Of a stretch of 64,000 bases of DNA, positions 7,755 through 56,044 are shown in pieces; position 1 is the first letter of the stretch; the number at the start of each line of letters is the position of its first letter. This stretch comes from Nonlabens antarcticus (lineage in GTDB: Bacteria; Bacteroidota; Bacteroidia; Flavobacteriales; Flavobacteriaceae). The position numbers and the translations under genes are program-made. The stretch covers positions 1 to 64,000 of the forward strand of contig NZ_JADFCO010000065.1 of NCBI RefSeq assembly GCF_015356755.1. Direction: 5' to 3'. The notes below the pieces were generated by a model. That model was not told where the DNA came from, did no database searches, and worked only from the letters and a program-made list of their open reading frames with translations.

Positions 7755-7887
7755 CGTTTACAAAACTTGACTATCATTGGAATAAAACAAGCAAGCGAAG
7801 CCGTCCTGCGACGGCTTGACAAAATCCAAGAGAATTGTTCTACGATAATTTGCTGCAGCCGCTTCCAGCGAAAGTCGAGAAGGAGCG
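7755..7887. repeat. Direct duplication, unit 1
   Basis: A 133-bp sequence repeated at 8033-8162 with a 278-base offset and only scattered substitutions and a three-base indel. It contains the hairpin GCCGTCCTGCGACGGC at 7800-7815. The sequence GAAGGAGCGTATCGC precedes unit 1 (7741) and follows unit 2, so the array may once have been longer. No gene is visible in 7710-8219; short frames here come from the repeats. Confidence 0.85.
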
Positions 7888-8032: not shown

Positions 8033-8162
8033 CGTTTACAAAACTTGACTATCATTGGAATAAAACAAGCAAGCGAAGCCGTCCTGCGACGGCTTGACGA
8101 AATTCAGAATTGTTCTATGATAATTTGCTGCAGCCACTTCCAGCGGCAATCGAGAAGGAGCG
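8033..8162. repeat. Direct duplication, unit 2
   Basis: Second copy of the 7755-7887 unit, 130 bp, with the same hairpin at 8078-8093. The two units are separated by about 145 bases that hold copy 2 of the CTCGACTG element. Confidence 0.85.
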
Positions 8163-42573: not shown

Positions 42574-42816
42574 ATGAAAAAAATCGTATTCACCCTAGCT
42601 GCTGTTTTTATGGGAGCAACTGCATTGACTTCTTGTCGTGATAGTGAAAAAGAAACTGAAACTATCGTAAAAGAAGTCGAAGTTACTGCCCCTGCAACTA
42701 CTCCAGCTGCCACTAATGAATCTGAAGGTATTTTAGAGAGAGCTGGACAAAAAGTAGATAGCAAAGTAAATGACGAAATCGATAACCAGATTGACCAAAT
42801 AGGAGACGACAATTAA
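42574..42816 (+). CDS. Small acidic lipoprotein, paralogue 1
   Basis: An 80-residue lipoprotein starting at the ATG at 42574; a TTG six bases upstream is in the same frame and less likely. The signal MKKIVFTLAAVFMGATALTSC puts the lipid on Cys21, split here as MKKIVFTLAAVF and MGATALTSC. The mature chain is short, acidic and helical, ending GQKVDSKVNDEIDNQIDQIG. It shares the Cys-Arg-Asp/Glu opening and acidic heptads with the genes at 42929, 43152 and 52733, and its end is especially close to the last. Function unknown. Confidence 0.75.
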   Translation: MKKIVFTLAAVFMGATALTSCRDSEKETETIVKEVEVTAPATTPAATNESEGILERAGQKVDSKVNDEIDNQIDQIGDDN

Positions 42817-42928
42817 TTAAAGACTTTGATTTTGAATGATGAAAGTGATCTGTTTGCTTTTTTTGTTCAAAAGCCTGGTTTTTAACATATCCTTTTTATA
42901 TTTAACCCCTTAACCTAAACTTTTAAAA

Positions 42929-43141
42929 ATGAAAAAATTAACTCTAGTATTTATTGCATTATTCACAGTATCAATGTTCGCTACTTCATGTAGAGATGAG
43001 GCTGACACTACAGAAGAAAAAATGGAAGAAGTAGCTGACGATATGGAAGACGCTGCTGATGACATGGAAGACACTATGGAAGAAGGTGTTAACGAAGTTG
43101 AAGAAAACACTGGAATGGGTGGTGTTGATGATGCTTCCTAA
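42929..43141 (+). CDS. Small acidic lipoprotein, paralogue 2
   Basis: A 70-residue lipoprotein: signal MKKLTLVFIALFTVSMFATS, lipid on Cys21, then RDEADTT and a very acidic repeat EVADDMEDAADDMEDTMEEG that would form an amphipathic helix with a seven-residue period, and a short GMGGVDD end. It lies about 110 bases after paralogue 1 and 10 bases before paralogue 3. Function unknown. Confidence 0.75.
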   Translation: MKKLTLVFIALFTVSMFATSCRDEADTTEEKMEEVADDMEDAADDMEDTMEEGVNEVEENTGMGGVDDAS

Positions 43142-43151
43142 TTTAAGTACT

Positions 43152-43319
43152 ATGAAAAAGATCTTTTTTACACTTATAATTCTTTTTCTTGCGACACCTA
43201 CTTTTATGGGTTGTCGTGATGAAAAAACTGTAGAAGTTGAAGAACTAGCACCAGACGCTGATGATAGCGGTGACGATGAAGGTTTTGATACTAATCCTAC
43301 AGAAAGTGATCCAGATTGA
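43152..43319 (+). CDS. Small acidic lipoprotein, paralogue 3
   Basis: A 55-residue lipoprotein starting at the ATG at 43152; the open frame begins earlier but those codons overlap paralogue 2 in another frame. Signal MKKIFFTLIILFLATPTFMG, lipid on Cys21, then RDEKTVEVEELAPDADDSGD. It is the shortest of the set and its tail is disordered rather than helical. Ten bases separate it from paralogue 2, so both are on one transcript, ended by the hairpin at 43341. Confidence 0.7.
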   Translation: MKKIFFTLIILFLATPTFMGCRDEKTVEVEELAPDADDSGDDEGFDTNPTESDPD

Positions 43320-43340: not shown

Positions 43341-43368
43341 AAAGGAACCTTAAACGGTTCCTTTTTTT
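43341..43368. terminator. Terminator after the lipoprotein cluster
   Basis: Arms AAAGGAACC (43341-43349) and GGTTCCTTT (43356-43364), six-base loop, T run on the right and A run on the left. The last codons of the convergent S24 repressor gene form part of the stem. Confidence 0.85.
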
Positions 43369-44123
43369 ATGCTTGCTATTTCGCTCCTTAGACTATCAAG
43401 TCCCTGTTTTAAAGATATCATTGCTTCTTGCCCCTCATAGACATCCAGGTCAAAACTCAGTTTTGAATTTACTTCCCACAACTCGCTTATTTCTACCACC
43501 GGTTGTTCGATCACGGGATAATCTCTATTTAAGGAAATCAACAAAATGCCTTCTGGCGACTCCGTCTTGCGCAATTTTTTTACCACTACAGTGTCTGGCG
43601 TTACCACCACATGGATCTTATTATCATTTGCCTGACGCACATTCTCCACGGCACGCGCCATAACCCATTCACTGGGCTGCAATACAGGCAACATACTATC
43701 GCCATTCACCTGGAAGGCACGGTAGCTTCCTTCCTTATATTGGGGTAATGGAATATGAAAAGCAGGCAATTCATTGTACCAGTCCGTATCCAGTACATTA
43801 CTGGCATAACCTGCACTCGCTTTAATGGGAACCATGATCATATTCTCACGATCGCTAGTGTCCATAGTAATAATTTTAGGCGCGGTATTATGGCTGGTTT
43901 CTAGGTATTTATTATAACTAACACCATACAACCACAGTGGGTTGATGTTAAATTGACGCAACAATTCTGACACGATTTTTCCCGTAATCTTCTTCTTGCC
44001 ACGTTCAATATCTGCAGTAGTACTTCCTGCCTCTAACAGTTCTGCAAACTCACTTTGTGTCTTTCCCAGATCCTCTCGTACCTGTTTAAACCTCTTTGCC
44101 TCGGTTGAAATCTCTTGTGCCAT
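43350..44123 (-). CDS. LexA-like HTH/S24-peptidase repressor
   Basis: A 257-residue repressor. About residues 8-67 are an XRE-type helix-turn-helix (QVREDLGKTQSEFAELLEAG). About 95-200 are a LexA/CI/UmuD S24 peptidase domain: a likely self-cleavage Ala104-Gly105 in KASAGYAS, nucleophile Ser143 in NGDSMLPVL, and Lys182 in VVVKKLRK, with spacing (39) close to that of LexA (37). A charged helix follows. By family knowledge it would represses DNA-damage genes until RecA filaments trigger its cleavage. It is divergent from the SRAP gene, and four copies of an 11-bp palindrome fill the gap. The -7 box ends four bases before the start codon, so the message may be leaderless. It may be the functional LexA of this cassette; a phage-type repressor is the alternative. 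Confidence 0.88.
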   Translation of the reverse strand: MAQEISTEAKRFKQVREDLGKTQSEFAELLEAGSTTADIERGKKKITGKIVSELLRQFNINPLWLYGVSYNKYLETSHNTAPKIITMDTSDRENMIMVPIKASAGYASNVLDTDWYNELPAFHIPLPQYKEGSYRAFQVNGDSMLPVLQPSEWVMARAVENVRQANDNKIHVVVTPDTVVVKKLRKTESPEGILLISLNRDYPVIEQPVVEISELWEVNSKLSFDLDVYEGQEAMISLKQGLDSLRSEIASIKKGTV

Positions 44124-44127
44124 GTGC

Positions 44128-44157
44128 CAAATATACCTTTTTTAGGAATAGTTCCAA
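44128..44157 (-). promoter_or_regulatory. Promoter of the S24 repressor gene
   Basis: On the minus strand TTG (44157-44155), 19 bases, TATATTTG (44135-44128): a full match to the Bacteroidota TTG-N19-TAnnTTTG layout. Operator 1 lies inside the spacer. The start codon CAT complement is at 44121-44123, four bases beyond the -7 box. Confidence 0.7.
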
Positions 44158-44240
44158 CTTTAACATTGGATTATTTCCATTTATTGGGAATTATTCCATA
44201 CTTTTGGATCTCAATCGGGAATATATCTTGGAATATTTCC
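44145..44240. promoter_or_regulatory. Array of four 11-bp operator palindromes
   Basis: GGAATAGTTCC (44145-44155), GGATTATTTCC (44168-44178), GGAATTATTCC (44187-44197) and GGAATATTTCC (44230-44240). The arms GGA and TCC with the AT-rich middle are kept in all four. Site 1 overlaps the repressor promoter, site 3 abuts the SRAP -7 box and site 4 lies just beyond its expected start point. Binding by the adjacent HTH/S24 protein is inferred from place and symmetry. I noticed no copy directly upstream of dinB or dnaE. Confidence 0.75.
44199..44206 (+). promoter_or_regulatory. Probable -7 box of the SRAP gene
   Basis: TACTTTTG, matching TAnnTTTG, directly after operator 3 and 48 bases before the ATG at 44255. 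The -33 region is overlapped by operator 2. Confidence 0.55.
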
Positions 44241-44254
44241 TAAAACTAAACATT

Positions 44255-45082
44255 ATGTGTGGTAGAGCATCTGTTATAACACCTGAAGCCCTTTTAGAGA
44301 ATCGGTTTAATGCCGCTTTCGCGAAAGGTGTTCATCTAGAAGAAAACGTAAACATAAGTGCAGGCAACAAGATCCCGGTAATCACTGGCGATAAGCCCAA
44401 CCATATACAGATGTTTACATTAGGTTTCACACCGCACTGGGCACACAAGCAAACCTATATGATCAATGCCCGTGCAGAAGGAAGCCATAATATAGAGAAT
44501 GATCCTAATTATAACGGGCCCGCAGGAATCTTCCAGAAACCTATGTTTCGCCATGCGATCAAATCACAACGATGCCTCATTCTAGTAGATGCATTTATTG
44601 AAGGCCCTAAACAAGAGAAACTCAACAAACCATACTTGGTCTACCCTAATAGGGATCGTGGCCCTTTCGCCCTTGCTGGAATTTATGACATATGGGAACA
44701 TCCATTAACAGGAGAACAACATCATACCGTTGCCATAGTTACAAGCGCCGCAAACCGTCTAACCCAGCGCATAGGTCACCATCGCTCTCCAGTAGTTTTA
44801 ACTAGAACACAGGAAGAAAAATGGCTGGACTCAGATTTATCCGTAAAGGAACTTACAGAAATCATGAAACCATTCGATTCTAAAGGTTTCAATGCCTACC
44901 CTATTTCGCAGAAAATAAAAAGTCCAGAAGCAAATGGACTCGAATTACTCAAACCCATAGGCGATAAAATATTTAAAGACTACGACAGATGTCTTTATGA
45001 ACGTCTCAAGTTTGTAGAAGATGATTCCCTAACCATACGTGAAGAACGCCTTGTAGAAGGCGACCAGTTCGTTCTCTTTTAA
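44255..45082 (+). CDS. SRAP-domain protein (HMCES/YedK), abasic-site shield
   Basis: Crosslinks to abasic sites in single-stranded DNA through its N-terminal cysteine, protecting them during replication. I start at the ATG at 44255 so that Cys2 follows the initiator (MCGRASV), as the chemistry requires; the longer open frame from 44096 overlaps the operators. The 275-residue protein has the family features MINARAEG (Asn and Arg of the active site), RCLILVDAFIEG, and ITSAANRLTQRIGHHRSPVVL with the conserved histidine (read as AANRLTQRIGHHRSPVVL). Part of the recurrent palindrome (44314-44327) encodes AAFAKGVH. First gene on this side of the divergent S24-repressor promoter, so probably damage-induced. 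Confidence 0.93.
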   Translation: MCGRASVITPEALLENRFNAAFAKGVHLEENVNISAGNKIPVITGDKPNHIQMFTLGFTPHWAHKQTYMINARAEGSHNIENDPNYNGPAGIFQKPMFRHAIKSQRCLILVDAFIEGPKQEKLNKPYLVYPNRDRGPFALAGIYDIWEHPLTGEQHHTVAIVTSAANRLTQRIGHHRSPVVLTRTQEEKWLDSDLSVKELTEIMKPFDSKGFNAYPISQKIKSPEANGLELLKPIGDKIFKDYDRCLYERLKFVEDDSLTIREERLVEGDQFVLF

Positions 45083-45107
45083 AAATTAATCCATAAAACC
45101 AACCGCC

Positions 45108-45392
45108 ATGAATATTGAAAAGATTAAAACAGATCTAGCCGTACGCGTTCAAAAGCTAATGGCAATTAGAAAGGAAACAGGCCACCTAAATTTCAAGGCA
45201 GCCAGTACCGTTAAAACATGGCGGGATAAAGTAACCGACACAGAAGAGCTCGTGCAAAAAGTATATGACACCTTGAACGAGGTCTTACAATGCAACGGTA
45301 TACAGTTTTCAAACCATTTAGAATACGATGGACTTATTAGCGATCTGGAACCGACCGTAAATGATCTAGTCCTACGTAACATGGAAGACTGA
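45108..45392 (+). CDS. Small helical protein of the damage cassette, unknown
   Basis: A 94-residue soluble protein, helical throughout, with lysine-rich and glutamate-rich faces (NIEKIKTDLAVRVQKLMAIR, KVTDTEELVQKVYDTLNEVL). I recognise no domain. It begins 25 bases after the SRAP gene, so it is on the same message, and a hairpin terminator follows it. A regulatory or partner role for SRAP or the polymerases is possible but unsupported. Confidence 0.7.
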   Translation: MNIEKIKTDLAVRVQKLMAIRKETGHLNFKAASTVKTWRDKVTDTEELVQKVYDTLNEVLQCNGIQFSNHLEYDGLISDLEPTVNDLVLRNMED

Positions 45393-45427
45393 CTTAGAGA
45401 AGACAATATTCATTTTAAAACTAGCTA

Positions 45428-45458
45428 AACCTCACAGGGAAACCTCGTGAGGTTTTTT
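45428..45458 (+). terminator. Terminator within the damage cassette
   Basis: Arms AACCTCAC (45428-45435) and GTGAGGTT (45447-45454) followed by T residues, between the small helical gene and dinB. The polymerase gene therefore probably needs a second promoter, which I could not identify in 45460-45588. Confidence 0.75.
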
Positions 45459-45588
45459 GACCACTAGATTCTGAAAACGGTAGTTCTCTGTGCCAGTGAG
45501 AGATTAGCTTAAAAAACAACAGACTCAACAACCAAAAACCAGAAGTATCCATTCACAAACTAATAGGCAAGAAGGAAAATAATATCAC

Positions 45589-46803
45589 ATGGAAAAGCAA
45601 ATCATACATCTGGATTTAGATACATTTTATGTCTCTGTGGAACGTAAGATGGATTCCCGTCTTAGAAACAAACCACTGTTGGTAGGCGGCACAAGTGACC
45701 GTGGGGTTGTCGCTGCCTGCAGTTATGAAACCAGAGGTTTTGGAGTTCATAGTGGCATGTCCATGAAACTAGCAAGGCAGTTGTGTCCAGAAGCCATTGT
45801 GATAAGAGGCAATGCCGGCACCTACTCTAAACATTCTGACGAGGTAACAGAAATCATCAAGCAAGAAACTCCACTTTTTGAAAAATCCAGCATTGATGAA
45901 TTCTACGCAGATCTCACGGGAATGGATCGGTTTTATGGATGTTATAAGTTGGCTTCTGAAATACGGAATAAGATCATAAAAGAAACCGGCTTGCCTATCT
46001 CTTTCGGTTTATCCGTCAACAAAGTAGTTTCTAAAATTGCGACTGGCGAGGCAAAACCCAATGCCCAACTTATGATTGATACGGGTCACGAAAAAGAATT
46101 TATGGCTCCGCTTTCTATAAAGAAAATTCCGCAAGTGGGCGATAAAACCTATCAGACCTTGCGTCATTTAGGGGTACGGCAAATACGCACCATCCAGGAA
46201 ATGCAGGAAGATATGATGATCCGGGTTTTAGGGAAAAATGGAAGTATGATCTGGCGTCGTGCCCAAGGTTTAGATAATAGACCCGTGATCGCATTTAATG
46301 AGCGCAAGTCCATTAGCACAGAACGCACTTTTGATAAAGACACCATTGATGTGGCAAAACTGAAATCCATTCTTATTGCCATGACAGAAAATCTTGCATT
46401 CCAGTTAAGGCGCGGCGATAAACTCACAGCTTGCATCAACGTAAAAATTAAATACTCCGATTTCAATACGTATTCTAAACAGTTGCGTATTCCCTTTTGC
46501 AGTGCAGATCACATATTGATTCCTAAGATTCTAGAAATTTTTGAGCGATTGTACAACCGCAGATTGCTAGTTCGATTGATAGGCATCAGATTTTCACATT
46601 TGGTCAGTGGGAATTATCAGATCAATCTGTTTGATGATACAGAAAACGCACTGAATCTTTACAATGCTTTGGATAAAATGAGAGAGAAATACGGCGACCG
46701 TAGCGTGGTTAGAGCTTCCGGATTAGGTGCAAAAACCATAGGCAGGATGACCAATCCATTTAATGGTTTGCCGCCGGTAGTTCTTGCACATAGGAAACAG
46801 TGA
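45589..46803 (+). CDS. dinB: Y-family DNA polymerase (Pol IV/DinB-like)
   Basis: A translesion polymerase of 404 residues. Palm residues are intact: Asp9 and Asp11 in IIHLDLDTFYVSVERK, and Asp103-Glu104 in SIDEFYADLTG, so it should be catalytic, unlike ImuB proteins that sit in similar cassettes but have lost these acids. Thumb and little-finger domains follow (VNKVVSKIATGEAKPN, IPQVGDKTYQTLRHLGV). QINLF at 344-348 resembles the QLxLF beta-clamp-binding motif, though it lies about 60 residues from the C-terminus. Spaced 422 bases from the dnaE-like gene downstream. Confidence 0.93.
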   Translation: MEKQIIHLDLDTFYVSVERKMDSRLRNKPLLVGGTSDRGVVAACSYETRGFGVHSGMSMKLARQLCPEAIVIRGNAGTYSKHSDEVTEIIKQETPLFEKSSIDEFYADLTGMDRFYGCYKLASEIRNKIIKETGLPISFGLSVNKVVSKIATGEAKPNAQLMIDTGHEKEFMAPLSIKKIPQVGDKTYQTLRHLGVRQIRTIQEMQEDMMIRVLGKNGSMIWRRAQGLDNRPVIAFNERKSISTERTFDKDTIDVAKLKSILIAMTENLAFQLRRGDKLTACINVKIKYSDFNTYSKQLRIPFCSADHILIPKILEIFERLYNRRLLVRLIGIRFSHLVSGNYQINLFDDTENALNLYNALDKMREKYGDRSVVRASGLGAKTIGRMTNPFNGLPPVVLAHRKQ

Positions 46804-46808
46804 TCGGG

Positions 46809-46843
46809 TTATCAGTTATCAGTTATCAGTTATCAGTTATCAG
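46809..46843. repeat. Heptamer tandem repeat TTATCAG, five copies
   Basis: Five exact head-to-tail copies of TTATCAG immediately after the dinB stop codon. Together with the elements that follow, it fills the spacer 46804-47225, in which I see no gene. Confidence 0.9.
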
Positions 46844-46849
46844 AAAATA

Positions 46850-46873
46850 TCAGTTCGAGCGCAGTCGAGAACA
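46850..46873. repeat. Interspersed CTCGACTG element, copy 3
   Basis: TCAGTTCGAGCGCAGTCGAG followed by AACA, the inverted counterpart of the copy at 2014-2037, with which it agrees at nearly every base. Confidence 0.7.
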
Positions 46874-46960
46874 GTTTAGGAGTTAAAATTTAGATATAAG
46901 CTCATTAGGAGAAAACACGATAATCGGCAGAAGGAATTTATAAACGAACGCAATACAACT

Positions 46961-46990
46961 CCCTCTCCGCTGGAGAGGGGTTGGGGTGAG
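46961..46990. repeat. CCCTCTCC/GGAGAGGG hairpin element
   Basis: Arms CCCTCTCC (46961-46968) and GGAGAGGG (46972-46979) with loop GCT, followed by GTTGGGGTGAGG. Elements of this form recur in spacers of many bacteria; one copy is present here. Confidence 0.6.
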
Positions 46991-47090
46991 GTGATTTAAA
47001 GAGATGAATTTTTAGAGAGATGCGGGAAACTAAAAAACCGATAATAATCAATTACGATTTTCAGAAAGAAATCAATTTCAGACAATTGGC

Positions 47091-47118
47091 AGATTTGAGA
47101 TTTGAGATTTGAGATTTG
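47091..47118. repeat. Heptamer tandem repeat GAGATTT, four copies
   Basis: Four copies of AGATTTG in phase; a second small group with GGGATTTGGGATTTGAGATT lies at 47195-47214, just before dnaE. Confidence 0.8.
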
Positions 47119-47225
47119 TTAATTATTGGAAAAATAAAAAAATCAGCAATAGACAATAGCGATTTGCGACAGCAAATCAATAATTGGCAGTTTTGGGATT
47201 TGGGATTTGAGATTTAAAACAAAAC

Positions 47226-50200
47226 ATGTATTTAAACAACCACACATACTACTCGATGCGATATGGCACCTTCAAAGAAGAAGTGCTGATTGATCTTGCT
47301 GTAGAAAATGGTCTAGAAACGATTGTTTTGACAGATATCAATAACACCAGTGCTTGTTTGAATTTTGTGCGGTTATTAGAAAATAAACCTCAAAAACCTG
47401 TAATAGGTGTAGATTTTCGCCGCGATCACCAGCAGCTGTATGTAGGTCTAGCAAAAAATAATGCCGGTTTTCAAGAATTAAACGTTCACCTATCACAACA
47501 CCTACATAATAAGATTCCGTTGCCAGATGCCGCACCAGATTTTAAAGATGTCTTCGTTATCTATCCGCTGAAAAAAGTAATGGAATTGAAGAAAACTAGT
47601 TTTCGCAAAAGCGAGTTCATAGGCATTTCCATAGCTGCACTACGCAAACTCCCATTTACGGAATATCTGAAATTCAAGGATAAGCTGGTCATACTTCAAC
47701 CGGTTACTTTTAGAAGCAAAAAGGATTTCAATGCACACCGATTGCTGCGCTGCATCGATCTCAACATTTTGCTGAGTCAGCTACCCGTAGAACAGCAGGG
47801 TGATATAGAGAATCAAATGATTCCCGTTACAGATCTTCAAAATGCCTTTGCCGATTATTCCTTTATTCTCAAAAACACTAAAAGACTGCTGGAGCAGTGC
47901 AGTATCAGTTTTGATTATGACAAATCATTACTTAATGCCAACCAAAAAACCTACCACCGGGAGGAGCCAGACAATGCTGCCGCTGATCTTGAATTGCTAA
48001 AAACATTAGCTCAAGAGGGCATACCATTGCGGTATGGGAAATCCAGCAAAGACGTTCAAGAGCGTATTTTAAAAGAAATCACCACCGTTGCAAATAAAGG
48101 TTTTGTTGCCTACTTTTTAATCAATTGGGAAATCTGTAAATATGCGCGTGATAAAGGATATTTCTATGTAGGACGCGGTAGCGGTGCAAATAGCATCCTT
48201 GCCTATCTCCTTCAAATTACAGAAGTGGATCCTATTGAACTAGACCTTTATTTTGAGCGGTTTATTAATGATTACCGCACGAGTCCACCAGATTTTGACC
48301 TTGATTTTTCTTGGGATGATCGGGAAGATGTGACTTGGTTTATTTTTAACCGTTTTGGAAATCGGGCAAATGTAGCGTTATTAGGAACCTACAACACCTT
48401 TCAATACCGCGCCGTTATCCGGGAATTGGGGAAGGTTTTCGGTCTTCCCAAAGCAGATATTGACAAACTTACCACGGGAAATTTTGATGAACACAGCCTA
48501 GACCATATGCATCGACTGGTGCTGCGGTATAGTTTATGGCTTAAAAACGTTCCTAATTATACCAGTATTCATGCCGGTGGGATTCTGATCACAGAACGAC
48601 CCATTCATTATTACAGTGCTACCAGTTTGCCACCCAAAGGTTTTCCCACCGTACAATTTGACATGCATATTGCAGAGGATGCCGGTATTCACAAGTTTGA
48701 CATTCTCGCGCAACGCGGCCTGGGGAAAATTCGTGATGCCATTCAACTGGTGAAGATCAACCAGCCAGATGCTAAAATTGCAGACGTACGTAGTGGCACT
48801 AAAGATTTTATGAAAGATGAGAGCATCAATGCCATGATCTCACAAGCAAAGTGCATAGGCTGTTTTTATATTGAATCACCCGCTATGCGCATGTTGTTGA
48901 GCAAACTTGCCACTAATGATTATATAGGTCTGGTGGCAGCAAGTTCTGTGATCCGTCCAGGCGTGGCGCAAAGTGGTATGATGCGCGAGTTTATCCTGCG
49001 TACCCGCCATCCTGAAAAACGTGCAGAGGCGCACCCCATCATGCAAAGCATCATGCCAGAAACTTACGGGATCATGGTCTATCAGGAGGATGTGATTAAA
49101 GTGGCGCACCATTATGCAAAGCTCGACCTGGGCGAGGCAGACGTATTGAGACGTGGTATGAGTGGTAAATATAGGTCTCGAGACGAATTCCAGAAAGTAG
49201 AGGATAAATACTTCCAAAACTGTATTAATGAAGGTCATGATCCCGCAGAATCTCAGGAGATATGGAATCAAATTAAAAGTTTTGCAGGTTACGCTTTCGC
49301 GAAAGGTCACAGCGCCTCATATGCAGTGGAAAGTTATCAGAGCCTGTACTTGAAACGATATTTTCCGCTGGAATACATGACCGCCACACTCAACAATGGA
49401 GGTGGATTTTACCGTCCAGAATTATATGTCCACGAGGCAAGAATGTGTGGAGCTACCATTGAAGCACCCTGTATCAACAATAGTGATATTGCAAATTCCA
49501 TTAAGGGAACAACCATTTACCTGGGGTATAGTTATCTCAAAGAACTGGAACAAAAAGCAATGGCTCTCGTGGTGGAAGCCCGGTGGCGTGATGGTGATTT
49601 TACATCTTTGGAAGATTTTATAAATCGGGTATTGATAAGCATTGACCAGATCTCCATTTTGATCCGTATTAATGCTTTCCGCTTTACGGGAATGGATCGG
49701 TATGAGTTGTTGTGGCAGGCACATTTTAAAATGGATAAGACTCCTAAAAAATCCTTACAAAAACAATTGTTCGTCCCCAAACATCGGGAAGCCACCATCC
49801 CGAGACTTGTTACAACGATGCAGGAATTGGCTTTTGAGCAGATGGAACTTTTAGGTTTTCCACTGTGTTCGCATTTTGATTTATTGACCCGACCGCCGCG
49901 CAGTAACAATACCCGTAAAAATTTGAAGGAATACCTCAACAACATGATCTTGATTTATGGTTATGTGGTGAATGTAAAAACAACGCATACCGGTAATGGG
50001 AAGCGCATGCAATTCGGCACTTTTCTGGATCGTGATGGTCATTTTTTTGATACCGTAATGTTTCCACCGGTGGCTGCTCGCATCACTTTTCGCGGAAGCG
50101 GTATTTATGCCGTGTACGGTAAGGTAGTAGAGGAATTTGATTTCTATTCCATTGAGGTGCAGCAAATGGAAAAAGCAGATTATATCACAGACCCGCGATA

Positions 50201-50363
50201 TTCAGAGGAGAACCCGCAGACGATGCAACGGTTGGAAAAACAGGCCAGTTTGCGGGACAGACGTATGGGAAATGGGAACGGACATCGCAAACCAGAATTG
50301 CCACAGCAGCATGAGGTGCACCAGCCAGGGGCGGGAAGAAAACCTGGAAAAGTGCGGGAATGA
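47226..50363 (+). CDS. DnaE2-like DNA polymerase III alpha subunit
   Basis: A C-family polymerase of 1045 residues, shorter than the replicative DnaE (about 1160 in E. coli), as in error-prone DnaE2/ImuC proteins. The catalytic segment PPDFDLDFSWDDR is intact near 353-365. The N-terminal PHP domain has lost its metal site: it reads NNHTYYSMRYGT and TDINNT where active forms have HxHS and TDHDN. HhH and OB-fold regions follow the fingers, and the basic tail ends GNGHRKPELPQQ and GAGRKPGKVRE. LQKQLF near residue 842 may be a clamp-binding peptide. The motif YAFAKGHSASYA is encoded by part of the recurrent palindrome (49292-49305). Variant palindromes lie at 47600 and 50088. Its place behind dinB suggests a translesion role. 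Confidence 0.92.
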   Translation: MYLNNHTYYSMRYGTFKEEVLIDLAVENGLETIVLTDINNTSACLNFVRLLENKPQKPVIGVDFRRDHQQLYVGLAKNNAGFQELNVHLSQHLHNKIPLPDAAPDFKDVFVIYPLKKVMELKKTSFRKSEFIGISIAALRKLPFTEYLKFKDKLVILQPVTFRSKKDFNAHRLLRCIDLNILLSQLPVEQQGDIENQMIPVTDLQNAFADYSFILKNTKRLLEQCSISFDYDKSLLNANQKTYHREEPDNAAADLELLKTLAQEGIPLRYGKSSKDVQERILKEITTVANKGFVAYFLINWEICKYARDKGYFYVGRGSGANSILAYLLQITEVDPIELDLYFERFINDYRTSPPDFDLDFSWDDREDVTWFIFNRFGNRANVALLGTYNTFQYRAVIRELGKVFGLPKADIDKLTTGNFDEHSLDHMHRLVLRYSLWLKNVPNYTSIHAGGILITERPIHYYSATSLPPKGFPTVQFDMHIAEDAGIHKFDILAQRGLGKIRDAIQLVKINQPDAKIADVRSGTKDFMKDESINAMISQAKCIGCFYIESPAMRMLLSKLATNDYIGLVAASSVIRPGVAQSGMMREFILRTRHPEKRAEAHPIMQSIMPETYGIMVYQEDVIKVAHHYAKLDLGEADVLRRGMSGKYRSRDEFQKVEDKYFQNCINEGHDPAESQEIWNQIKSFAGYAFAKGHSASYAVESYQSLYLKRYFPLEYMTATLNNGGGFYRPELYVHEARMCGATIEAPCINNSDIANSIKGTTIYLGYSYLKELEQKAMALVVEARWRDGDFTSLEDFINRVLISIDQISILIRINAFRFTGMDRYELLWQAHFKMDKTPKKSLQKQLFVPKHREATIPRLVTTMQELAFEQMELLGFPLCSHFDLLTRPPRSNNTRKNLKEYLNNMILIYGYVVNVKTTHTGNGKRMQFGTFLDRDGHFFDTVMFPPVAARITFRGSGIYAVYGKVVEEFDFYSIEVQQMEKADYITDPRYSEENPQTMQRLEKQASLRDRRMGNGNGHRKPELPQQHEVHQPGAGRKPGKVRE

Positions 50364-50439
50364 TGGGGATTTGAAATACCGAGAAACGGTACCGCTGTGC
50401 AGTGGCACGACGGTGGGAATATTGAATAAAATTGGAGTG

Positions 50440-50596
50440 CTGAAAGGCGGAGCCGTTCTGCGACGGATTGACGGTGAGTTTGAATAGCAGGATTTGATAA
50501 GCTTAGAATTGGTGGCGCCCTGCGACGGATTGACGATAGAGGAGTTAAAACATAATTCAAATGCTGAAAGGCGAAGCCGTCCTGCGACGGATTGAC
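50440..50596. repeat. CCGTCCTGCGACGG hairpin elements, three copies
   Basis: Copies at 50452-50467 (GCCGTTCTGCGACGGA), a truncated one near 50518-50534, and 50576-50591 (GCCGTCCTGCGACGGA), each followed by TTGAC. The same hairpin is at 7800-7815 and 8078-8093. The intact copies are introduced by CTGAAAGGCG or AAGCGAAG. The spacer 50364-50610 holds only these. Confidence 0.75.
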
Positions 50597-50610
50597 AAAT
50601 TGAAAGATAT

Positions 50611-51870
50611 ATGAACTACGAACGAATTAAGGAGAAATTAGAAATTCTCGCAGATGCGGCAAAGTATGACGTGAGTTGCAGCAGCAGCGGCAGCAAGCGG
50701 AAAAACAAGAATAAAGGACTGGGAGATTCTGACGGGATGGGTATTTGCCACAGTTATACAGAGGATGGTCGTTGCGTGTCACTGCTTAAAATCTTGTTGA
50801 CGAACGTCTGCATTTTTGACTGTGCCTATTGTGTAACGCGGAAATCCAACGATATAAAGCGCGCTGCTTTTACGGTACAGGAAGTAGTTGATCTTACCAT
50901 CAATTTTTATAGGCGCAATTATATCGAAGGTCTGTTTTTAAGTTCTGGGATTTTTAAAAGTCCCGATGCTACCATGGAGCGGCTTATTCGAGTGGCAAAA
51001 AAGCTGAGGGAAGAAGAAAACTTCAATGGCTATATCCATCTCAAATCCATACCTGGTGCTAGCGATGAGCTCATGCAACAAGCTGGATTATATGCAGACC
51101 GACTTTCAGTTAATATCGAGATTCCTACAAAGGCTGGATTAAAACTACTCGCTCCAGATAAAGATCATAAGGATTTTATCCAGCCTATGAAAGCGGTTAA
51201 AAACGCCATTGATCTCTATCAATCTGAAAAGAAATTGATACGCAGCACTCCTATTTATGCTCCAGCTGGCCAAAGCACACAAATGATCGTGGGCGCCACC
51301 GGTGAGAGCGATCGGGATATCATGTATAGTGCTAATTTTTTCTACAATAAATTCCAGATGAAACGAGTGTATTATTCGGGTTATATTCCTGTGGCAGATG
51401 ATTCCAGATTACCTGCAATAGGAACAGAAGTTCCGATGATGCGGGAGAACCGACTCTATCAAACCGATTGGTTACTGCGATTCTATGGTTTTGATGTTCG
51501 CGAAATCCTAAATGATGAATATCAAAACCTGGACATGGATATTGATCCTAAGCTTTCTTGGGCGCTGCGCAACCTTGATCAATTTCCAGTAGATATCAAC
51601 AGAGCTGAAAAAAGGATTCTCGCTCGCATTCCCGGAGTTGGGATGAAATCTGTCGGGAAGATTCTAAGCGCCCGCCGATTCAGAAAACTGAATTGGGAAC
51701 ACTTAAAAGCTATTGGTATTTCTATCAATAGATCTAAATATTTTATCACCTGTGATTCTAGGGAGTTTGAAAGGCGTGATTTGACCGGAATACAGATAAA
51801 GAATCAGATTTTATTATCGGGCAGCAGTAAATACAGCAAGAATTTTACAAACCAATTAAGTCTTTTCTAA
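50611..51870 (+). CDS. Radical SAM putative DNA modification/repair protein
   Basis: A 419-residue radical SAM enzyme with the cluster motif CIFDCAYC (Cys67, Cys71, Cys74). The pattern matches TIGR03916, a family described as putative DNA modification/repair proteins: SDGMGICHSYTEDGRCVSLLKILLTNVC-type N-terminus (read in parts), and a helix-hairpin-helix DNA-binding segment LARIPGVGMKSVGKILSARR near 335-355. The last five residues are QLSLF, the exact form of a beta-clamp-binding peptide. The substrate is not known. Stop and start codons overlap by one base with the next gene (TAATG), so the two are made together. The coupled partner and the polymerases upstream argue for a DNA-lesion role. 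Confidence 0.9.
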   Translation: MNYERIKEKLEILADAAKYDVSCSSSGSKRKNKNKGLGDSDGMGICHSYTEDGRCVSLLKILLTNVCIFDCAYCVTRKSNDIKRAAFTVQEVVDLTINFYRRNYIEGLFLSSGIFKSPDATMERLIRVAKKLREEENFNGYIHLKSIPGASDELMQQAGLYADRLSVNIEIPTKAGLKLLAPDKDHKDFIQPMKAVKNAIDLYQSEKKLIRSTPIYAPAGQSTQMIVGATGESDRDIMYSANFFYNKFQMKRVYYSGYIPVADDSRLPAIGTEVPMMRENRLYQTDWLLRFYGFDVREILNDEYQNLDMDIDPKLSWALRNLDQFPVDINRAEKRILARIPGVGMKSVGKILSARRFRKLNWEHLKAIGISINRSKYFITCDSREFERRDLTGIQIKNQILLSGSSKYSKNFTNQLSLF

Positions 51871-52667
51871 TGGAACGCGTTTTACAATATGATGGCACTT
51901 TTGATGGTTTAATGACGACCATTTTCACTATTTATCAGCATAAAGTCAAGAATCCAATCATCCAGGCACCGGCACAGCAGCAGGATAGTCTTTTTGGCGA
52001 AGCCCATGAAATTATCACCGAACCTGAAAAAGCTCAAAGAGTCCTGAACCGGATGAACGAATTAAGTTCTAAACAAGACATGATGGAGTTCTATAAAGCA
52101 TTCCTAAGTGAGATTCTGGGAATAGAAAACACCTTATACCAGTATTGCCAGCAAACCTTTGCAGCGGGCAAGGCGCCTTCTGGTGACTATGGCAACACTA
52201 CCATTCTAAAGATCTCTCAGGCTGCCAAAATGGTAGGTCGTGAAAAGCATCGTATGGAAGCATTTATACGGTTTCACTTAATCGATGAAGATTTGTATTA
52301 TGCGAACTGTGAACCAGATTTCAACGTATTACCACTGATAGCCCAACATTTCAAAAACCGCTATGCTGACCAGAAATGGGTGATTTATGATCTGAAAAGA
52401 GACTTCGGTATTTCTTATGACCTAGAAAATGTCGTGGAAGTGACCATCAATTTTAAGGATCCTACCGCAAAAAAAGGTATTGTCAATAAGGCTGGTTCTT
52501 CCACTCAACTGGTGACGGGCAGCTTTCGCGAAAGCGAAAACAATTACAGGGATCTCTGGAATCAATATTTCAAAAGTACAAACATTGAATCACGCAAGAA
52601 TATGAAGCTTCACCTACAGCACGTACCGAAGCGTTACTGGAAATACTTGAGTGAAAAAGTAGCCTGA
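51870..52667 (+). CDS. TIGR03915-type DNA metabolism protein
   Basis: A 265-residue soluble protein with the features of the family linked to the radical SAM gene: opening LQYDGTFDGLMTTIFTIYQHK, a central GREKHRMEAFIRFHLIDEDLYY (read as MVGREKHRMEAFIRF), and PDFNVLPLIAQHFKNRYADQKWVIYD. Members are often fused to, or near, uracil-DNA-glycosylase-like domains; no such domain is fused here. QQDSLF at residues 37-42 resembles a clamp-binding peptide. The recurrent palindrome (52522-52535) encodes SFRESE near the C-terminus. Biochemical role unknown. Confidence 0.88.
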   Translation: MERVLQYDGTFDGLMTTIFTIYQHKVKNPIIQAPAQQQDSLFGEAHEIITEPEKAQRVLNRMNELSSKQDMMEFYKAFLSEILGIENTLYQYCQQTFAAGKAPSGDYGNTTILKISQAAKMVGREKHRMEAFIRFHLIDEDLYYANCEPDFNVLPLIAQHFKNRYADQKWVIYDLKRDFGISYDLENVVEVTINFKDPTAKKGIVNKAGSSTQLVTGSFRESENNYRDLWNQYFKSTNIESRKNMKLHLQHVPKRYWKYLSEKVA

Positions 52668-52732: not shown

Positions 52733-52948
52733 ATGAAGAAGTTAGTTTTAAGCATGATGTTATTCGGCTTACTAATCGGTACCACAGCCTGTAGAGAATC
52801 CACAGGTGAAAAGGCAGAAGACGCCATTGAATCTGCTGCTGAAGATACTGAAGACAACCTAGAGCAAGTAGGTGATGAGATTGAGCAAATAGGAGACAAC
52901 GTTGATGAAGAAATCAACGATGAACAAACTGGTGCTGACGATAACTAG
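52733..52948 (+). CDS. Small acidic lipoprotein, paralogue 4
   Basis: A 71-residue lipoprotein from the ATG at 52733; nine more codons are open upstream but include the promoter box. Signal MKKLVLSMMLFGLLIGTTAC with Cys20 as lipid site, then RESTGEKAEDAIES and long acidic helix segments EDTEDNLEQVGDEIEQIGDN. The end matches paralogue 1 (DEIDNQIDQIGDDN) closely. It lies just behind the damage cassette, about 10 kb from the other three. Confidence 0.75.
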   Translation: MKKLVLSMMLFGLLIGTTACRESTGEKAEDAIESAAEDTEDNLEQVGDEIEQIGDNVDEEINDEQTGADDN

Positions 52949-53428: not shown

Positions 53429-56044
53429 TCATCTTGATTTATCGGTCCCTACCAGCATGCGTTTGATCTCGTTTAATTTCATTAAAGCTTCCACTGGAGT
53501 AAGGGTGTTTATATCCACTTGTATGATCTCATTGCGCACTTCTTCCAGTAGTGGATCATCTAAATTGAAAAAACTCAACTGCATCTCTTGATCTTGTGCT
53601 GCTTTCATTGCTGCTCTTGAATCCTCGCGCTGGTGTGATTTCTCTAGCGTTTTTAATATTTTTTCTGCTTTGTGAATGACCTGTTGTGGCATTCCAGCCA
53701 TCTTGGCCACGTGTATTCCAAAACTATGATGGCTACCACCGGGAATAAGCTTGCGCATGAAAAGTACTTTATCCTTTAATTCCTTCACTTCGACATTGAA
53801 ATTCTTAATACGTGGAAATTGCTCTGTCATTTCATTAAGCTCGTGGTAATGGGTGGCAAATAAGGTTTTGGCCTTAAATGGATGCTCATGCAGGTATTCT
53901 GTAATTGCCCACGCAATGGAAATTCCATCATAAGTACTCGTCCCGCGGCCTATCTCATCAAGCAAGATCAAACTGCGGTCACTCACATTATTCAAAATGC
54001 TGGCGCTCTCGTTCATTTCAGTCATAAACGTAGATTCACCTTGGGAAATATTATCGCTGGCACCTACTCTAGTAAATATTTTATCCACGATTCCCATTTT
54101 AACCGTATCTGCTGGGACAAAGCTTCCCATTTGTGCAAGAAGTACTATTAATGCAGTTTGTCTTAAAATCGCGCTCTTACCGCTCATGTTGGGTCCTGTA
54201 ATCATGATGATCTGCTGCTCATCACGATCCAGCTGCACATCATTAGGAATGTAGGGCTGATCTGCCGGTAACATTTTTTCAATCACGGGATGACGACCGC
54301 CTTTAATGATTAGTTCATCCGTATCTAATAATTCTGGTCTTGTGTAATTTGATGAAACCGCATGATCTGCAAAAGAAATCAAACAGTCTAATTGCCCTAT
54401 CAAATGTGCATTATTCTGGATGGGTTTTATAAAAGGGATTATTTCTTTTACTACCTGCTCAAAAAGTTCTTGTTGCAACGCATGAATTCGTTCTTCAGCA
54501 CCCAGTATTTTTCCTTCGTATTCCTTTAATTCTTCGGTAATATAACGCTCAGCATTTACCAATGTTTGTTTGCGGGTCCAGCTTTCTGGCACTTTATCTT
54601 TATGGGAATTGCGGACTTCAATATAATATCCAAAAACATTATTGCTGGAAATTTTTAAGCTGGAAATTCCGGTTTCCTTACTGTGACGGTCCAGCATTTT
54701 ATCTAAATAATCCTTTCCTGTCGTCGCAAGACCACGCAATTCATCCAGTTCTTCGTGAAAACCTTCGGCAATTGTTTTACCCTTTAAAAGATTGACCGGT
54801 GCATCCTCATCTAATCGCTCTTCAATTACTTCTATGAGCTGTGTGCATTTGTTTAGGCTTTCGCCCAAAGTCTGTAAGGATGTATCTCCTGCATCCATTG
54901 TCATTTCTTTGATAGGAGCAATAGCCTGCAAGCTATTCTTCAATTGAATGACCTCGCGTGGACAAATTTTACCTACAGCAACCTTAGAGACTAATCGTTC
55001 TAGATCATTCATCGACTTAAGATGAGATTTCACCTTTTCCCTGATTTGCGATTCGGTTTTGAAATAAGCAACAACATCGTGGCGCTTGTTTATTTGTTCC
55101 GCGTTTTTTAATGGAAAGGCCATCCATCGTTTTAGCAACCTTGCCCCCATAGGTGTGGTGGTCTGATCGATTACATCAATTAACGTAACCGCTCCTGTAC
55201 TTAAGGCTTGATACAATTCTAGATTACGCACCGTGAATCGATCCATCCACACAAAGCTGTCGTCCTCAATCCGCGCTATAGTTGCCACATGATCGATCTG
55301 GTGGTGTTGGGTTTCGGCTAGATAATGAAGGATGGCACCTGCTGAAATCAATGCTTGATCCAGTTTGTCAACGCCATAACCTTTTAGGGAATTCACTTTG
55401 AAATGTTTCAGAAGACTTTCCCTGGCATAATCTATTTGAAAAACCCAGTCCTCAAGATAAAAGAAGGGCAAGTCGTATGGAAAATCCTGAGCCAACTCCT
55501 TTTTATCACTTCGGGAAACCAAGACTTCGCTAGGGTTGAAATTTTGCAACAATTTATCGGCTTCTTCTTTAGTTCCTTGGCTGATTAGAAATTCGCCTGT
55601 GGAAATATCCAGAAAGGCAACGGCATACACATTCCGCGAAAGCGATAAGGCTGCCAGAAAATTATTAGATCTGGAACTGAGCACTTCATCATTAAGCGAT
55701 ACTCCTGGCGTTATCAATTCTGTCACACCACGCTTTACGATGTTCTTTGTCTGCTTAGGGTCTTCTAATTGATCACAAATTGCCACGCGTTCCCCAGCGC
55801 GGACCAGCTTAGGCAAGTAAGTATTGAGAGAATGATGGGGGAAACCTGCAAGCTCTGTGCGCTCACCTCCATTATTTCTATTAGTCAAAACAATGTTAAG
55901 AATGCGAGCCGTTTTGACGGCATCTGCACCAAATGTTTCATAAAAATCCCCCACACGGAAAAGCAGCAAAGCATCAGGATACTTTGTTTTGATCTTATTA
56001 TACTGCTGCATCAAAGGCGTGACCTTTTTACCTTGGGAACTCAA
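53429..56044 (-). CDS. mutS: DNA mismatch repair protein MutS
   Basis: Recognises mismatches and small loops and starts methyl-independent repair together with MutL, which is not in the window. At 871 residues it is of MutS1 type. The mismatch-reading Phe-x-Glu is in FRVGDFYETFG (about 29-39), then connector, lever and clamp domains, Walker A GPNMSGKSAILRQTA, Walker B ILLDEIGRGTSTYDG, and the C-terminal helix-turn-helix. QLSFF at 822-826 is a likely beta-clamp-binding peptide. A variant palindrome at 55633-55645 lies in the gene. No neighbour on the same strand is close enough to be an operon partner. Confidence 0.97.
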   Translation of the reverse strand: MSSQGKKVTPLMQQYNKIKTKYPDALLLFRVGDFYETFGADAVKTARILNIVLTNRNNGGERTELAGFPHHSLNTYLPKLVRAGERVAICDQLEDPKQTKNIVKRGVTELITPGVSLNDEVLSSRSNNFLAALSLSRNVYAVAFLDISTGEFLISQGTKEEADKLLQNFNPSEVLVSRSDKKELAQDFPYDLPFFYLEDWVFQIDYARESLLKHFKVNSLKGYGVDKLDQALISAGAILHYLAETQHHQIDHVATIARIEDDSFVWMDRFTVRNLELYQALSTGAVTLIDVIDQTTTPMGARLLKRWMAFPLKNAEQINKRHDVVAYFKTESQIREKVKSHLKSMNDLERLVSKVAVGKICPREVIQLKNSLQAIAPIKEMTMDAGDTSLQTLGESLNKCTQLIEVIEERLDEDAPVNLLKGKTIAEGFHEELDELRGLATTGKDYLDKMLDRHSKETGISSLKISSNNVFGYYIEVRNSHKDKVPESWTRKQTLVNAERYITEELKEYEGKILGAEERIHALQQELFEQVVKEIIPFIKPIQNNAHLIGQLDCLISFADHAVSSNYTRPELLDTDELIIKGGRHPVIEKMLPADQPYIPNDVQLDRDEQQIIMITGPNMSGKSAILRQTALIVLLAQMGSFVPADTVKMGIVDKIFTRVGASDNISQGESTFMTEMNESASILNNVSDRSLILLDEIGRGTSTYDGISIAWAITEYLHEHPFKAKTLFATHYHELNEMTEQFPRIKNFNVEVKELKDKVLFMRKLIPGGSHHSFGIHVAKMAGMPQQVIHKAEKILKTLEKSHQREDSRAAMKAAQDQEMQLSFFNLDDPLLEEVRNEIIQVDINTLTPVEALMKLNEIKRMLVGTDKSR

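Follow-up and report, generated by a model that had tools for sequence, protein, structure and literature searches.

Do seven neighbouring genes with a common DNA-damage theme form one inducible machine, or are they parts of different origin brought under one repressor? This question is raised by a cassette at positions 43350-52667 of a 64,000-nucleotide stretch of Nonlabens antarcticus (contig NZ_JADFCO010000065.1, positions 1 to 64,000; hereafter the window). The original prediction suggested a distinct inducible mutasome with a LexA-like repressor and a radical SAM (rSAM)/TIGR03915 pair, which may process abasic or crosslinked lesions ahead of translesion synthesis. All seven open reading frames (ORFs) were found, none of them interrupted, and the family assignments were confirmed by profile matches. 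We consider it probable that the cassette is a Nonlabens SOS island under a non-canonical LexA, built from two modules and carrying a separate rSAM-TIGR03915 repair enzyme. The genes are:

43350-44123, minus strand: S24 repressor (HTH_3 and S24 peptidase PF00717)
44255-45082, plus strand: SRAP protein (HMCES/YedK family), ATG start at 44255 (MCGRAS...), with Cys2 directly after the Met
45108-45392, plus strand: ORF of 94 amino acids, family unassigned
45589-46803, plus strand: PolY, Y-family polymerase (IMS/IMS_C)
47226-50363, plus strand: DnaE2-type C-family polymerase (DNA_pol3_alpha, finger and PHP)
50611-51870, plus strand: TIGR03916 rSAM protein (profile match and CxxxCxxC)
51870-52667, plus strand: TIGR03915/DUF4130 protein, 265 amino acids (profile match)

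The repressor combines a PF01381 (HTH_3) helix-turn-helix (E 1.2e-6) of the CI/phage type with the PF00717 peptidase domain, and no LexA DNA-binding family was matched in Pfam at E 0.001. Its A104-G105 scissile bond and S143-K182 dyad are 100% conserved across 75 aligned S24 rows (the window plus 74 others, some from the same species), which upholds the LexA-like repressor of the original prediction and marks it, as far as sequence can, as self-cleaving. With every tested sequence hallmark present, we identify the protein as a non-canonical LexA of the Bacteroidetes type. Such a group, recognizing GGA-N5-TCC, has been published for Flavobacteriaceae; in the accessible parts of that source its regulon includes DinB-DnaE operons, SRAP (COG2135) and COG1573-COG4277, and damage induction and operator binding are reported for other species, Nonlabens not being named in those parts (PMC8565304). 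In the window, the elements between lexA and SRAP are:

44128-44157, minus strand: lexA promoter-like motif match, TTG-N19-TATATTTG
44145-44155: putative LexA operator 1, GGA-N5-TCC, GGAATAGTTCC
44168-44178: putative LexA operator 2, GGA-N5-TCC, GGATTATTTCC
44187-44197: putative LexA operator 3, GGA-N5-TCC, GGAATTATTCC
44230-44240: putative LexA operator 4, GGAATATTTCC, 14 bp ahead of the SRAP start codon

These four GGA-N5-TCC palindromes within 96 bp (44145-44240) had not been reported in the first reading of the sequence. Operator 44145-44155 overlaps the TTG of the lexA promoter-like motif and sits in its spacer. Genome-wide, paired boxes 18-23 bp apart occur at three places, of which two are here and the third falls within an ORF that we take to encode lysyl-tRNA synthetase, and the reversed-pattern control gives none; the lexA/SRAP array is the only intergenic tandem GGA-N5-TCC array found in the genome. 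Single boxes mean little, because their counts are only modestly above control (90 GGAWWWWWTCC sites genome-wide versus 62 for the reversed pattern; 19 GGA-N5-TCC sites in the window versus 10 expected), and the case rests on the array. Relatives carry 224 boxes in the 13,438 bp of 71 regions between the repressor and its divergent partner, compared with 268 boxes in the remaining 1,364,790 bp of the same loci. At least two boxes are present in 69 of these 71 regions, and the spacing is 18-20 or 22-23 bp in 142 of 154 cases. The motif TTG-N17-22-TANNTTTG, presumably the Bacteroidetes-type promoter, is directed at lexA in 48 of 72 regions, each with a box in the spacer that begins at the G of TTG (shuffles 0). 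The four-box array and the box-rich divergent regions of relatives make the SOS control that had been proposed likely.

The gene next to the array matches the SRAP family PF02586 (E 1.7e-43; the profile-search query carried three extra residues ahead of the start) and has YedK-like relatives with solved structures. Its frame in the ORF list opened at TTG 44096, and the real start was set to ATG 44255. Residues C2, N71, E116 and H176, which we equate with the YedK active-site residues, are invariant in 8 Nonlabens rows. The ORF of 94 amino acids that follows is retained in all 7 other Nonlabens loci examined and matched no Pfam family (best E 0.043, short of the cut-off); the protein is possibly a small accessory subunit.

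PolY keeps its catalytic acids, as originally stated: D9, D103 and E104 are present in all 67 aligned rows. Its tail LDKMREKYGDRSVVRA resembles, compared by eye, the N-terminus of the organism's own RecA (LDKLDKAYGKGTVMKM), and D362, R365, G369 and A376 within it are kept at 97-100% across the 67 rows. The corresponding feature is:

46648-46716, plus strand: RecA-NT-like motif of PolY, residues 354-376

DnaE2 retains the catalytic aspartates of PDFDLDF and has a degenerate PHP site, reading LNNH, TDI and D where HxH, TDH and E are expected; the equivalence of these positions is our assumption, aided by a fragment of the genome's own DnaE1. One more DnaE-type gene, with a longer frame, lies elsewhere in the genome (C65:667271). 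No ImuA was found among the seven cassette proteins, the cassette being the part inspected, and on this point too the original prediction was correct. By these sequence features the PolY-DnaE2 pair matches the putative DnaE2B-PolY-RecA mutasome of Bacteroidetes described in the accessible parts of PMC12926913 and PMC6511836, the latter of which also describes a PolY2-DnaE2 system of Cellulophaga algicola.

The history of the island was read from relatives: the named loci are the best 80 of 191 rSAM relatives, and a family set comprises 120 genomes, with a strong DnaE2 match defined as 922 bits or more. The two sets overlap (for example, L039/L094, L044/L108 and L038/L149 are the same), and rows are not independent. 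The five top-listed named rSAM matches are all from Nonlabens and 89-92% identical. Adjacency of rSAM and TIGR03915 holds in 80 of 80 named loci, and a single one of the 27 family rSAM loci has no TIGR03915. In 48 named and 15 family loci LexA and rSAM are divergent, and 6 named loci (all Nonlabens) and 2 family loci have LexA at the head of a joint cassette. Of 60 family loci, 59 have PolY adjoining DnaE2, and the sole exception lies at a contig end; this count omits the joined cassettes of G000, G010 and G111, the genomes G022, G064 and G082, and second copies in G061 and G094. The fetched stretch around rSAM-TIGR03915 is without DnaE2 in 74 of the 80 named loci (some on short contigs) and in 25 of the 27 family loci. 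Among the family genomes 28 have rSAM, 66 a strong DnaE2 and 19 both, and the two are adjacent only in G000, G010 and G111. Since rSAM-TIGR03915 and PolY-DnaE2 are mostly apart in relatives, the modules are separable. Within Nonlabens (23 genomes), DnaE2 was found in 22 and rSAM in 18, and all 18 rSAM-bearing genomes keep rSAM at most 300 bp behind DnaE2 (both genes are broken in G412), so the cassette neighbourhood is not due to chance. The same joined order occurs in one other genus (L055), there without SRAP. To a large extent the cassette is a union, within one genus, of modules that can stand apart. It is not peculiar to one strain; the gene-order survey that the original prediction called for shows these genes as neighbours well beyond it.

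The rSAM-TIGR03915 pair was then considered by itself. Its members score far above their profile cut-offs (TIGR03916 667.9 bits, cut-off 343.5; TIGR03915 266.4 bits, cut-off 112.25), and the stop of rSAM and the start of TIGR03915 overlap at base 51870. Of 296 Bacteroidota genomes, 96 have TIGR03915 and 96 have rSAM, with 94 having both. Presence of rSAM meant E at most 2e-48; at E 0.001 the tally is 164 of 296, and the looser matches were left out because the weaker ones listed match the C-terminal helix-hairpin-helix (HhH) part only. The exceptions are G032 and G152, which have no such rSAM, and G143 and G239, with rSAM at contig ends. The two proteins are near-obligate partners in Bacteroidota. 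No TIGR03915 relatives were found in viral contigs. Six cysteines of the rSAM protein are invariant in 33 rows from three phyla, namely 67/71/74 (CxxxCxxC) and 23/46/55. Residues 253-385 have weak similarity to RuvA (E 3.9e-4), and the C-terminal HHH_3 match reaches 20 bits, under the cut-off of 27.

For TIGR03915, a predicted model (pLDDT 83) provided a structural lead. Foldseek returned two matches at E ≤0.001 among 624 at E ≤10, both of them chains of one PAP phosphatase (E 1.5e-4), and unrelated folds appeared from E ~0.2. In VIA, PAP phosphatase was best (Z 10.0, root-mean-square deviation 4.5, 194 aligned) and RecJ next (Z 8.5), on a scale where models lacking a clear match commonly reach Z 7 to 8. 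Each of the 50 rows listed by VIA is, judged by its title or as a replisome, primase-complex or tRNA-synthetase chain, presumably a DHH or DHHA1 protein. The predicted fold resembles DHH-DHHA1 proteins (RecJ/Cdc45/PAP-phosphatase); no proposal of this kind for TIGR03915 was found in the literature within reach, which excludes most subscription papers. A motif-I-like D8 is invariant in 58 Bacteroidota rows. Residues 222-262 include 16 of the protein's 39 invariant positions, yet have low model confidence, and may be a segment that folds on the partner. A separate, 67-row TIGR03915 alignment includes L304 in a wrong frame, which makes its own list of invariant positions too short.

Read as an SOS island, the cassette would respond as follows. 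DNA damage would give rise to RecA filaments, on which the S24 repressor would cleave itself, as suggested by the complete conservation of its scissile bond and catalytic dyad, and cleavage would free the phased operator array over the lexA promoter and the stretch leading up to SRAP. Going by its family, SRAP would cap abasic sites in single-stranded DNA, and PolY and DnaE2 may bypass lesions as a RecA-bound complex, a published prediction with which the RecA-NT motif found here is consistent. The rSAM-TIGR03915 pair would act as a separate DNA-repair enzyme: the rSAM protein, with a candidate second metal site and a putatively DNA-binding HhH tail, may direct radical chemistry at a damaged base, and TIGR03915, as a shrunken DHH-DHHA1-like protein, may clamp it to DNA and dock via its conserved C-terminal segment. 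The island would have originated by the joining of a lexA plus rSAM-TIGR03915 module to a polY-dnaE2 module, which are apart in relatives; elsewhere, about half of the polY-dnaE2 loci have an S24 gene facing them, as a rule one more distant than this LexA.

A series of observations, given in this and the following two paragraphs, weighs against the SOS-island reading. No operator lies ahead of polY, dnaE2 or rSAM in the window, the only other nearby box (51171) falling within the rSAM gene. No Bacteroidetes-type promoter motif is directed at SRAP here, and in only 1 of 72 regions does one point at the target genes (shuffles 1.25). The recA gene has no upstream box in this genome, even when one mismatch is allowed. 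Between the ORF of 94 amino acids and polY there is, in addition, a hairpin of this form:

45427-45455, plus strand: terminator-like hairpin AAACCTCAC-N11-GTGAGGTTT, followed by a T run

A hairpin with an ACCTCAC stem and a T run precedes polY in 6 of 8 Nonlabens loci; L089 has a different, weak hairpin and L090 none. The alternative that survives best builds on this hairpin and on the confinement of operators to the lexA/SRAP end, proposing that lexA and SRAP-orf94 only are damage-inducible and that polY-dnaE2-rSAM-TIGR03915, uncoupled by the terminator, have low constant expression. We regard it as unlikely, if worth keeping in mind. In none of the 8 Nonlabens loci does the orf94-polY gap hold a promoter motif or a box, so that read-through from upstream would account most simply for transcript. 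In relatives where LexA is not a neighbour, the genes often have boxes of their own: 21 of 30 loci have one at most 300 bp upstream of the leading polymerase gene (9 have none), and 20 of 39 have one that close to rSAM, the 19 rSAM loci lacking one counting against the favoured reading; DinB-DnaE operons are also reported in the regulon, in the accessible parts of PMC8565304. Because no box precedes polY, dnaE2 or rSAM in the window and the orf94-polY gap has the hairpin but neither box nor promoter motif, the proposed damage induction of polY, dnaE2, rSAM and TIGR03915 would rely on read-through.

Gene linkage also tells in part against the SOS island. The orthologue of this LexA adjoins PolY/DnaE2 in only 3 of 60 loci; counting distant S24 proteins, an S24 neighbour is found in 29 of 60, and the 26 loci in which a distant S24 faces PolY/DnaE2 have no GGA box between the genes. 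A LexA neighbour is missing from 26 of the 80 named and 10 of the 27 family rSAM loci, and co-occurrence of rSAM and DnaE2 in the family is not significant (19/28 versus 47/92, Fisher P 0.13). As a side observation, the 26 distant-S24 loci (L183-L224, other Flavobacteriaceae) have an S24-to-PolY/DnaE2 spacing of at most 269 bp, and inspection by eye showed a CTACAAATATAAGCAA stretch recurring among them, which may mark a different operator. The second alternative, the single distinct mutasome of all seven proteins in which the rSAM pair readies lesions for bypass, seems improbable to us. The stable order in 18 rSAM-bearing Nonlabens and L055, the one-base rSAM/TIGR03915 overlap and the short gaps in G010 speak for it. 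It is weakened as one functional unit by the separable modules, by the near-complete (each ~99%) Nonlabens genomes G416, G417 and G421, which have DnaE2 without rSAM, and by the hairpin between SRAP-orf94 and polY. The likely SOS control stands, but most of the proposed distinct inducible mutasome has already been described, and nothing was found in support of either abasic sites or crosslinks as substrates of the rSAM pair. The original interpretation of the cassette was partly right and largely anticipated in print.

With regard to the pair, the predicted rSAM model is poor (pLDDT 64) and its structural neighbours are mostly ordinary radical SAM folds. The DHH-like fold of TIGR03915 derives from one predicted model; the window sequence has no DHH or GGGH motif, D8 is lost in UdgX fusions, and sequence searches of the PDB gave no support. 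Profile comparisons by hhalign (18 RecJ, 19 NrnA and 10 AlaRS sequences plus unrelated controls) were no better than controls, with E 0.13-0.15 for RecJ/NrnA and 0.079 for an unrelated PolY control, and more rows were of no help. The last alternative, a uracil/base-excision system, draws on the COG1573-COG4277 operon of Bacteroidetes, called a putative uracil-DNA glycosylase (UDG) base-excision system in the accessible parts of PMC8565304, and on UdgX-annotated TIGR03915-matching proteins (472-492 amino acids) beside rSAM in four Alphaproteobacteria; UdgX itself bonds covalently to abasic DNA (PMC10359453, in its accessible part). This alternative is improbable here, as the window protein has DUF4130 alone in Pfam and no UDG domain, the open frame is at most 371 amino acids in 95 of 96 Bacteroidota genomes (478 in the remaining one), and the ORFs of loci L031-L167 included no homologue of the genome's two UDG-superfamily proteins, queries that might miss a distant UdgX. 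On these grounds we rejected uracil excision as an activity of the pair in the window. Tentatively, and with less than even confidence, we propose that TIGR03916 and TIGR03915 may together form an enzyme of SOS repair that has yet to be described. One subunit would be the radical SAM protein, bearing a second metal site (Cys 23/46/55) and a RuvA-like HhH tail, and the other a catalytically altered, DHH-derived DNA-binding partner resembling RecJ/Cdc45. Damaged DNA would be the target of the radical chemistry, and in some phyla UdgX would be an optional additional domain. A literature search by the names TIGR03915 and TIGR03916, with most subscription papers beyond reach, found nothing; DUF4130, COG4277 and related terms occur in the accessible parts of PMC3765255 and PMC8565304.

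How far the island departs from known systems can be stated for each part. Going by the accessible parts of PMC8565304, the non-canonical Bacteroidetes LexA regulon is alike in its CI-like helix-turn-helix plus S24 architecture, Ala-Gly/Ser-Lys residues, GGA-N5-TCC motif, occurrence in Flavobacteriaceae and set of targets; it differs in that here the targets lie in one island beside lexA, recA has no box and the COG4277 partner has no UDG domain. The DnaE2B-PolY-RecA system, as far as PMC12926913 and PMC6511836 are accessible, shares the degenerate-PHP DnaE2, an active-type PolY with the RecA-NT motif and a cassette without ImuA, whereas in Nonlabens it is joined to SRAP and rSAM-TIGR03915. 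In the ImuA-ImuB-DnaE2 cassette, too, a Y-family protein neighbours DnaE2 and control is of the LexA type, but the present cassette has no ImuA and its Y-family protein retains the catalytic acids. The same adjacent TIGR03916-TIGR03915(-UdgX) gene pair exists in Bacillota and Alphaproteobacteria records; the window form is without the UdgX part, and in Flavobacteriaceae the pair is often linked to LexA. Compared with DHH-DHHA1 phosphoesterases (RecJ, Cdc45, NrnA, PAP phosphatase), the TIGR03915 model hints at a comparable two-domain arrangement (Z reaching 10.0 in VIA), but with a much shorter N-terminal domain, no DHH/GGGH motif and no sequence-profile support. Already known, on the accessible parts of PMC8565304, PMC6511836 and PMC12926913, are the repressor class, the GGA-N5-TCC motif, its targets and the putative DnaE2B-PolY-RecA mutasome. 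Added here are the separability of the modules, the restriction of operators to the LexA/SRAP end, the rSAM pairing with its extra cysteines and the DHH-like model.

Apart from the shared base 51870, the plus-strand gaps of the cassette measure 25-422 bp, the largest being polY-dnaE2 (422 bp) and dnaE2-rSAM (247 bp). In the sister species (L031) these are shorter, at 31 and 133 bp, and both large window gaps contain repeated DNA. ATCAG and GATTTGA repeats occur in the former (46808-47215), and the latter contains:

50425-50596, plus strand: three 48-nt direct repeats at a 62-bp pitch

The repeat core CCTGCGACGGATTGAC is present there in 3 copies at exactly this pitch, and 2 further copies with one mismatch lie at 7805-7820 and 8083-8098. 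Small acidic lipoprotein-like ORFs of one style occupy both flanks of the cassette (42574-43319 and 52733-52948). Downstream, behind tRNA-Leu and tRNA-Gly, follows a gene at 53429-56044 that we take from its sequence to be mutS-like; a mutS-like homologue is also near rSAM-TIGR03915 outside Nonlabens (for example, in L038, L045, L056, L096, L147 and L161). PADLOC, run on six of the seven cassette proteins, gave only a weak helix-turn-helix match, to the repressor. The 12-bp palindrome CTTTCGCGAAAG occurs at 14 sites in the window, from 3746 to 58380 (shuffles 0), where other 12-bp palindromes occur at most once each. It recurs often in Nonlabens (7 loci, with 3-7 copies per ~20 kb) and in Dokdonia (4 loci, with 24 copies between them) and is absent from the remaining 70 named loci, as a HIP1-like, lineage-restricted repeat; a literature search on this palindrome found no paper.

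For the flavobacteria, these results present the SOS regulon as assembled from movable modules around a repressor. They also narrow down a genuine puzzle, namely the radical SAM/TIGR03915 pair, which is linked to the SOS response, occurs in three phyla and is nearly obligate in Bacteroidota. If the two-subunit enzyme proposed above were true, the published UDG base-excision label would be wrong for those Bacteroidetes forms in which the glycosylase domain is missing. An additional cysteine site, a possible DHH-like partner and the lack of that domain bring the chemistry of the pair within direct experimental reach.

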